A stretch of DNA of 31,309 nt from a virus. The notes beneath the pieces are model-generated. The model made no database searches. It worked only from the letters and a program-made list of their open reading frames with translations, and was not told where the DNA came from. Positions 29,232 to 31,309 of the stretch are shown in pieces. A program made the translations under genes and the position numbers. Within the stretch, counting starts at the first letter, position 1, and every line of letters begins with the position of its first letter. The stretch covers positions 1-31,309 of the IMG/VR virus record IMGVR_UViG_3300030090_002125. One strand, given 5' to 3'.

Positions 29232-29402
29232 ATGCGCGGGTTATCTTACCGCACCTCCAAAGATTACATTGCTTACGATCCACTACAAAAATGTAATTAT
29301 AGAATTCTTAACGGAAAGCGGCTATGGTTACAGCCAAGACCTAAAGAAGTGTACCTGTCAAAAAAAGAGCTAAAGTGTGGACAGTTAACAATCTCGCTAT
29401 GA
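29232..29402 (+). CDS. Small basic protein at the head of the modification island (56 aa)
   Basis: 56 residues from ATG 29232; a TTG at 29217 would add five residues. 'MRGLSYRTSKDYIAYDPLQKCNYRILNGKRLWLQPRPKEVYLSKKELKCG' is basic and aromatic-rich, probably a small beta domain that binds nucleic acid. Its stop overlaps the ATG of the ParB-like gene (ATGA at 29399-29402), which fixes the start of that gene and links the two. No family is named with certainty. Confidence 0.55.
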   Translation: MRGLSYRTSKDYIAYDPLQKCNYRILNGKRLWLQPRPKEVYLSKKELKCGQLTISL

Positions 29403-30016
29403 CCACAACACCAAATTTACCTATATTCTCACCAGAGGATATTAAACAATCAAGAATAATAGATTTAACCCTTTATAAAGATAATCCTAGAGTACATAGT
29501 GATGTTCAAATAGAAAGATTAGCAATCTCACTTCAGGAGTTTGGCTTTACTAACCCTGTATTAATTGATGACATGGGTAATGTTGTTTGTGGTCATGGTC
29601 GTATTGCAGCTGCAAAAAAAATAGGACTAGAGACAGTTCCAACTATTACGCTTTCTCATCTAACACCAGATCAGCGTAGAGCCTACATAATTGCAGATAA
29701 TCAACTTGCCTTAAACTCTAGTTGGGACGATGACATATTAAAACAAGAATTAGAAGCATTAATGGAAAATGGATTTGATTTATCTGTTTTAGGCTGGGGC
29801 GATGATGTACCGACCTTTGCAGATGAGCCTGATTATGGTTCCTTAGAAGATTTTGACGACCCTACTAGCGAACTAGCTAATGATGTAATGAAAGCAATAC
29901 AGATAGAATTTAGACCAGAAGATTATGAAGAGGCTAAAGAAGTAGTAGGAGAAGCAAGAAAAAAAGGTATTTATGTAGGGCAAGAATTAGTGAAAGCTTT
30001 AAAAAACTTAAATTAA
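29399..30016 (+). CDS. ParB-like nuclease-fold protein of the modification island
   Basis: 205 residues from ATG 29399 (ATGA overlap; a GTG at 29375 is unlikely). Residues 18-105 are a ParB N-terminal domain: 'IIDLTLYKDNPRVHSDVQIERLAISLQEFGFTNPVLIDDMGNVVCGHGRIAAAKKIG', with Gly65-His-Gly-Arg68, and 'YIIADNQLALNSSWD' after it. This type, without a partition HTH, is widespread in phages next to DNA methyltransferases. It is followed with one-base overlap by an FkbM-type methyltransferase. It could guide or regulate DNA modification or act as a nuclease. Confidence 0.75.
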   Translation: MTTTPNLPIFSPEDIKQSRIIDLTLYKDNPRVHSDVQIERLAISLQEFGFTNPVLIDDMGNVVCGHGRIAAAKKIGLETVPTITLSHLTPDQRRAYIIADNQLALNSSWDDDILKQELEALMENGFDLSVLGWGDDVPTFADEPDYGSLEDFDDPTSELANDVMKAIQIEFRPEDYEEAKEVVGEARKKGIYVGQELVKALKNLN

Positions 30017-30720
30017 TGAAGTTGGAAAAGGGAGAAATTAACGGTATTAAATTTTTTTACCGTGAAGGATTTTCTGATGCCAAAACTTTTATAGAAGTAC
30101 TGAAACAAGATTGTTACCAAAAAAAAGGAATGACCATAAAGGCCAACGAATCGTGGCTTGATTGTGGTGGTAATGTTGGTGCTTTTTCACTATTAGCAGC
30201 TTCTAAAGGTGCATCAACTGTTTGTTATGAGCCTGACCCTTACAGTTGTGAAATGATAGAAAAAAACCTTAAATTAAATGGTTTTGAAAATGCAGTAGAA
30301 ATTAAAGAGGCAGCACTTGTACATGATGAAAGAAAGTCTACAATTTTAACTATCGGACCTAACGGCGGGGTTTGGCGTAATTCGATAATGCACAAAGGCA
30401 TTAGAAAAAAAGGTATAAAAGTACCATGTATAAATTTTGATACGCAAGCTGGCCTAGCCGATAATTGTAAAATGGATATTGAAGGCGCAGAAATACCAAT
30501 TCTTACGCATAGTATGGCCACCTTTAAAAAACTTGTTTATGAATGGAGTTTTGATTATGACCCATATATACCAAAACTTTGGAATGTGATCGACAAACAA
30601 AAAGCAGATTACCGTGTAGAAGCAGAATATAAGTCTCTGCACTATGTTGAAAGGGACGTTACATTTTGGGGTGCTACTTGGTTTCCTAAAAACTCTATGG
30701 TTTATTGTTTTGCATTATGA
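30016..30720 (+). CDS. FkbM-family methyltransferase
   Basis: 234 residues. 'WLDCGGNVGAFSLLAASKGA' (residues 47-66) is the SAM-binding loop with Asp49 and Gly51, Glu72 in 'VCYEPDP' is the ribose-binding acid, and 'KMDIEGAE' (152-159) is the family signature. FkbM enzymes mostly methylate hydroxyl groups on sugars or other small molecules, rather than DNA bases. Overlaps with both neighbours show the three genes are made together, so its substrate may be a group made by the dioxygenase-like neighbour. The N- and C-termini are complete. Confidence 0.8.
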   Translation: MKLEKGEINGIKFFYREGFSDAKTFIEVLKQDCYQKKGMTIKANESWLDCGGNVGAFSLLAASKGASTVCYEPDPYSCEMIEKNLKLNGFENAVEIKEAALVHDERKSTILTIGPNGGVWRNSIMHKGIRKKGIKVPCINFDTQAGLADNCKMDIEGAEIPILTHSMATFKKLVYEWSFDYDPYIPKLWNVIDKQKADYRVEAEYKSLHYVERDVTFWGATWFPKNSMVYCFAL

Positions 30721-31309
30721 AACTACCTGAACTAATCCTGAAACCTGTAACATCGCCCCTTAAGATTGGCGATTCTGTAGGAGGTTTTGAACCTAACGTA
30801 TTTGATGATTGTATATTAGTTGACCCTGATGGAACAGCAGTAGGTTTATTTATCAAAACTTTGCCTGATGATTTACAAAATCTAGTCAACATAGTTGACA
30901 AAGAAATACAAACTAAGCGGGTACCTAAATCAGAAATGAAAAGATCTAGCGGGTTACACAACAAAAAAGCTGAAGTACTGCAATACTCTACTATTTGCGG
31001 TTCTTGTCCACCTAAGCCTCACATGAGAAGGCCTTATGCTACTAGATCATCTGTTCACTCAGTTAAAAGCGCCAATGTTTTTGTAAAAGCAATTAATGCA
31101 GCTGGTATCAAATCTTTTGAATTGGTTAAAAAATATATTCCAACAGTTGCTGAAAATCATTTATTGAAAATTAAGCAAAGAATACCTGATAACTGGCGTT
31201 TTGCTAATAATTTCAGTTCTACAATTTCAAACTGCAACATATCCGCACCAGTTCACCAAGACCACGCCAATGTAAAAGGTGCTATAAATATGATTATTAC
31301 CAAAAGACG
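30717..31309 (+). CDS. Putative 2OG-Fe(II) dioxygenase, possibly TET/JBP-like (3' end outside window)
   Basis: The first 197 residues, beginning in an ATGA overlap with the methyltransferase gene and open to the window end. Residues ~91-120 ('ICGSCPPKPHMRRPYATRSSVHSVKSAN') are a distinctive motif I recall from phage hypothetical proteins. Near the end, 'FSSTISNCNISAPVHQDHANVKGAINMII' has an His180-x-Asp182 pair with following Asn, like the metal site of TET/JBP-type dioxygenases. The second metal His and the 2OG-binding Arg would lie past the window. If right, it may oxidise a base or a side group. The assignment is tentative. Confidence 0.5.
   Translation, partial: MKLPELILKPVTSPLKIGDSVGGFEPNVFDDCILVDPDGTAVGLFIKTLPDDLQNLVNIVDKEIQTKRVPKSEMKRSSGLHNKKAEVLQYSTICGSCPPKPHMRRPYATRSSVHSVKSANVFVKAINAAGIKSFELVKKYIPTVAENHLLKIKQRIPDNWRFANNFSSTISNCNISAPVHQDHANVKGAINMIITKR

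Follow-up and report, generated by a model that had tools for sequence, protein, structure and literature searches.

A coupled set of genes at the end of a viral DNA sequence is, on balance, probably a phage module for the hypermodification of DNA bases, in which a putative TET/JBP-type dioxygenase would oxidise the base, an FkbM-family methyltransferase would tailor it, a ParB-like protein would assist and the protected DNA would be packaged. The sequence analysed (the window) is 31,309 nucleotides long and corresponds to positions 1-31,309 of the 32,721-b record IMGVR_UViG_3300030090_002125; among named viruses it is closest to the Prochlorococcus siphoviruses MED4-184, P-HS2 and MED4-117, with 81% DNA identity over the locus. 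The chemistry that we infer would begin with hydroxylation by the dioxygenase of a pyrimidine 5-methyl group in the phage's own DNA, thymine (yielding 5-hydroxymethyluracil) being a likelier substrate than cytosine. FkbM, standing in for the glycosyltransferase of sister phages, would then tailor the product, most simply by O-methylation of the new hydroxymethyl group to give a 5-(methoxymethyl)pyrimidine. The ParB-like protein may recruit the enzymes to DNA or prime the DNA for them, and the adjacent terminase would package modified DNA that resists host nucleases.

Layout and coupling of the locus

The features of the locus, in window coordinates, are the following.

29232-29402, + strand: small basic open reading frame, 56 aa, with an ATGA overlap with the ParB gene; accessory
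29399-30016, + strand: ParB-like protein, 205 aa, with a ParB_N match near the cut-off and PHROG matches; no methylase domain
30016-30720, + strand: FkbM-family SAM methyltransferase, 234 aa, with Methyltransf_21, invariant motifs and a class I methyltransferase fold
30717-31309, + strand: the 197 N-terminal residues of a putative TET/JBP-type 2OG-Fe(II) dioxygenase; the gene ends at 31439 in the parent record
31254-31262, + strand: codons H180, Q181 and D182, the iron-binding H-x-D motif within the dioxygenase gene

The small open reading frame (ATG at 29232, end at 29402) and the ParB gene (ATG at 29399, stop at 30016) share an ATGA overlap, TAATG joins the ParB gene to the FkbM gene (30016-30720), and a further ATGA joins the latter to the dioxygenase gene (ATG at 30717). 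The dioxygenase frame is cut by the end of the window; in the parent record it is kept past a gap of ten Ns (31310-31319) up to the stop at 31439, and is followed by genes positioned like TerS and TerL of MED4-184. The order ParB-FkbM-dioxygenase-TerS-TerL is kept in MED4-184, MED4-117 and more than 100 environmental contigs, and the coupling is not due to chance, since gene order and short overlaps are found again in more than 100 independent contigs. The sequence-only reading, in which four genes are joined by ATGA or TAATG overlaps, thus agrees with the coordinates and with this recurrence. It had also counted the small basic protein as a member of the unit: the overlap with the ParB gene stands, but membership of the conserved core does not, because the protein is restricted to close relatives (51-61 aa in the MED4-184 group) and is absent from distant relatives that retain ParB-FkbM-TET. 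Elsewhere in MED4-184, the tail gene region encodes a protein with a Prok-JAB domain plus a ThiS-like domain (L291:33706-34674).

The encoded proteins

The dioxygenase had been called from one partial motif, and the distal histidine and 2OG-binding arginine were expected past position 31309. Both are encoded past the gap in the record to which the window belongs, as H231 (within RHGVTPI) and R245 (within YRNSHVW); together with H180 and D182 they are invariant in an alignment of 15 diverse sequences. Matches to Pfam Tet_JBP (PF12851) lie under the Pfam cut-off throughout the subfamily: a full-length relative scores E=3.4e-6 (26.8 bits against a cut-off of 34.9 bits), and sister proteins give 3e-7 and 1.1e-5. 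The predicted fold, from a moderately confident AlphaFold2 model (pLDDT 69), is closest to TET/CMD1 enzymes, which answers the question of a double-stranded beta-helix in favour of the call. The best 26 PDB matches in Foldseek are all CcTet, Naegleria NgTet1, human TET2 or Chlamydomonas CMD1, and in VIA-align TET2 scores Z 14.1 and NgTet1 Z 13.1, at an rmsd of about 4 across 206-232 residues, the runner-up group being FTO with Z under 11. The assignment of the third core gene as a TET/JBP-type 2OG-Fe(II) dioxygenase, a putative oxidase of the 5-methyl group of thymine or 5-methylcytosine in DNA, therefore holds at the level of sequence and model. When PDB sequences were searched with this profile of the TET subfamily, TAL-effector repeats came up; they were rejected as chance summing over a helical stretch, each repeat contributing about 2-5 bits. 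A scan of bacterial and archaeal genomes gave no relative of this TET subfamily, and hence no sign of a prophage copy.

Members of the FkbM family typically O-methylate sugars and natural products, and FkbM-like genes also occur elsewhere in phages; we know of no member that acts on DNA. The product of the window's gene matches Pfam Methyltransf_21 (PF05050) over the cut-off (E=5.8e-10; 40 bits against 22.7), carries a motif I of the form D-x-GGNVGAF, an acidic YEPD and the FkbM motif DIEGAE, of which GGNVGAF and DIEGAE are invariant, and has a class I SAM methyltransferase fold according to a fold search with its moderately confident model (pLDDT 73), all of which confirms the initial family call. 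The gene is under purifying selection (dN 0.26, dS about 2). Two FkbM-seeded scans, which yielded 80 loci each, contained no core-family FkbM locus lacking a TET gene downstream; the linkage between FkbM and TET is near-exclusive from both sides. FkbM nevertheless recombines as a cassette, as its identity departs from that of its flanks: the window shares 94% (ParB), 69% (FkbM) and 92% (TET) identity with MED4-184, whereas the values for the locus L039 are 78%, 98% and 86%.

The ParB-like protein matches Pfam ParB_N just under the cut-off (E=2.9e-5), and a relative (in L046) matches it over the cut-off. It has strong matches in PHROGs to phrog_620 (ParB-like, 5.8e-46) and to the N-terminal part of phrog_498 (DNA methyltransferase, 1e-42), and a G-H-G-R box is near-invariant in the family; the original ParB-like assignment is upheld by these matches. 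Among its relatives, some lie next to DNA-modification genes and others are fused to them. The annotation of some relatives as 'DNA methylase' was rejected for this protein, ParB_N being its only domain, and most likely stems from the fused relatives. The closest relative outside cyanophages (L005:4890-6147), from Psychrobacter phage vB_PmaS_Y8A, directly precedes a Mom-family DNA modification gene and the terminase.

Exchange of the putative tailoring gene

The slot between ParB and TET was surveyed for 116 distinct TET proteins of the window's subfamily. It holds FkbM in 68 cases and the TET-associated glycosyltransferase TAGT (PF20691, matches over the cut-off) in 42, and is empty in five, one case not being assigned. 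On the TET tree, the label changes six to seven times for FkbM and at least four times for TAGT; for instance, a single tight clade contains loci with TAGT (L082), with FkbM (L150) and with neither (L152). Core-type FkbM and TAGT are mutually exclusive in the slot. No TAGT is present in the window's record, where FkbM occupies the slot; elsewhere in 23 FkbM-type records no TAGT-family enzyme was found over the cut-off (one sub-threshold match in G036), and a scan of the 20 larger proteins of the window and of MED4-184 revealed no glycosyltransferase. This exchange is the strongest evidence for the proposed role: since FkbM repeatedly replaces, in situ, enzymes that tailor hydroxymethyl bases, it is best read as such an enzyme itself, most likely one that tailors a hypermodified DNA base. 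It would act after TET and not before, because the ParB-TET pair alone is viable and persists without FkbM, which also disfavours the idea that FkbM prepares the substrate for TET.

A comparable association is found in a second, far-diverged TET lineage typified by Pelagibacter phage HTVC112P (Tet_JBP at 1e-29), in which the order ParB-TET-FkbM occurs in 26 of 37 loci. The post-TET slot is otherwise occupied by TAGT with nucleotidyltransferase-type genes, or by an ADDT (PF18724)/aGPT-Pplase3 protein, ADDT being described as an amino acid:DNA transferase family and aGPT-Pplase3 as a thymine pyrophosphorylase one. The HTVC112P enzyme itself (gp18, L370:4094-5002) is annotated as 'DnaJ chaperone/putative SNF2 DNA repair protein', yet it is a clear TET/JBP dioxygenase in a ParB-TET-FkbM operon. 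Several other genes of these loci deserve mention. Over its C-terminal half, a 712-aa protein encoded right after TET in L406 (3890-6028) matches ADDT and aGPT-Pplase3, and its N-terminal half resembles a PLP-dependent enzyme by eye. Cytidylyltransferase-cupin and kinase/phosphatase genes adjoin TAGT after TET in L403 (3894-4673) and L407 (3897-6106), which suggests that the activated sugar or alditol with which such phages decorate their DNA is of their own making. A second FkbM subfamily co-occurs with TAGT, adjacent to it in L401 (1964-3360) and 4 kb away in L081 (148-786, - strand), and L412 has another methyltransferase beside TAGT. Because they accompany TAGT, the L401 and L081 enzymes may methylate a sugar rather than a base, and this subfamily is a candidate methylase of DNA-linked sugar.

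Alternative readings and known systems

The same module could operate with FkbM methylating a sugar or larger group that a transferase, either the host's or an unrecognised one of the phage, had already placed on the hydroxymethyl base. This is the main rival, and it may apply somewhere, since L401 has FkbM beside TAGT; sugar O-methylation is the precedent for FkbM, and the L081 and L412 arrangements point the same way. For the window we hold it to be improbable, as the slot holds either core-type FkbM or TAGT but not both, and the searches described above revealed no accompanying glycosyltransferase. The oxidised base could also be cytosine, with 5-methylcytosine made by host or phage being converted to 5-hydroxymethylcytosine and then O-methylated. 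Phage TETs often occur together with C5-methylases and glycosyltransferases (PMC12730594), and of 50 records with a TET of this subfamily (several of the records being fragments) 5 carry a DNA cytosine-C5 methylase, including G003 and G009, phages whose FkbM allele is almost that of the window, so that cytosine is kept as a candidate. However, the other 45 records lack such a gene, and none is found in the window's record or in the isolate genomes MED4-184 and MED4-117. A gene of the thymidylate-synthase/hydroxymethylase family, from which nucleotide-level hydroxymethylases originate, was absent from all 21 records searched for one. The rarity of the one and absence of the other favour direct action on thymine, as with JBP, and the HTVC112P-type slot also hosts ADDT/aGPT-Pplase3, families tied to thymine hypermodification. 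Thymine is thus the likelier substrate, and oxidation of cytosine in this module appears unlikely.

The sequence-only reading had left two explanations side by side, a hypermodified base and modification of a surface glycan. FkbM acting on a host or virion surface glycan, in an incidental neighbourhood, would fit the typical function of the family and the presence of FkbM-like genes elsewhere in phages. We consider it very improbable: the gene lies in the replication/packaging interval, flanked by ParB and TET and away from the tail-fibre genes, and a second TET lineage shows the association again in a different gene order. The hypermodified base is preferred because the FkbM slot alternates with TAGT and, in the other lineage, with the amino acid:DNA transferase. 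Hardly any weight attaches to the third gene being a queuine tRNA-ribosyltransferase in a module for modifying tRNA or for placing deazaguanine in DNA. This is the RefSeq label for the proteins of MED4-184, MED4-117 and Nigel, and the PHROG name (phrog_6059), but we reject it, as Tet_JBP is the sole Pfam match of the full-length protein, with no TGT match, the predicted fold is TET-like and the Fe/2OG residues are invariant.

A more specific proposal, to which we give slightly less than even chances, is that aquatic phages make the new base 5-(methoxymethyl)uracil, or its cytosine analogue, through TET and then FkbM, and swap methyl, sugar and amino-acid caps at one slot to outpace host nucleases. 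If true, the enzymes known to cap hydroxymethyl bases gain a methyltransferase, and a base without report in the literature searched is predicted in Prochlorococcus phages and many marine and freshwater relatives. The cultured phage MED4-184/P-HS2 has the same operon, which makes the prediction accessible to mass spectrometry. The single slot alternating between FkbM, glycosyltransferase and nothing would then be a natural experiment in the diversification of phage DNA camouflage.

Loci combining ParB, TET and terminase are already known, as is the tailoring of TET products by glycosyltransferases, after which Pfam names TAGT; phage TET/JBP hypermodification loci with TAGT were reportedly described by Iyer et al. 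in 2013. Full-text literature searches, covering the phage-TET literature in part, turned up no paper that gives an FkbM methyltransferase such a role in phage DNA modification. The TET/JBP-TAGT loci (PF12851, PF20691) resemble the window in their adjacent ParB, dioxygenase and terminase genes and in a tailoring enzyme within the operon, theirs being a glycosyltransferase whereas the window's would be an FkbM methyltransferase. The same order beside the terminase is seen in the Mycobacterium cluster B phages Nigel and Stinger (ParB-TET-TerS-TerL), and Rhodococcus phage Tonitrus has ParB-TET-aGPT-Pplase2, likewise beside the terminase; TET identity is about 26-29%, and they have no FkbM but another tailoring gene or none. 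HTVC112P shares all three families (FkbM 29% identical), but its FkbM follows TET, and its TET is missed by the profile of the window's TET subfamily. In the kinetoplastid base J pathway (JBP, then a glucosyltransferase), the hydroxymethyl pyrimidine produced by a TET/JBP oxygenase is also capped by a second enzyme, although the cap is glucose and the organism a eukaryote, whereas a methyl cap in a virus is proposed here. Finally, the carboxymethylcytosine system CmoX/CmoY of cyanophage S-B43 likewise modifies cyanophage DNA by SAM-type chemistry and has neighbours with a ParB domain, but it proceeds by direct C5-carboxymethylation by a C5-methylase homologue, without TET (PMC12783734).
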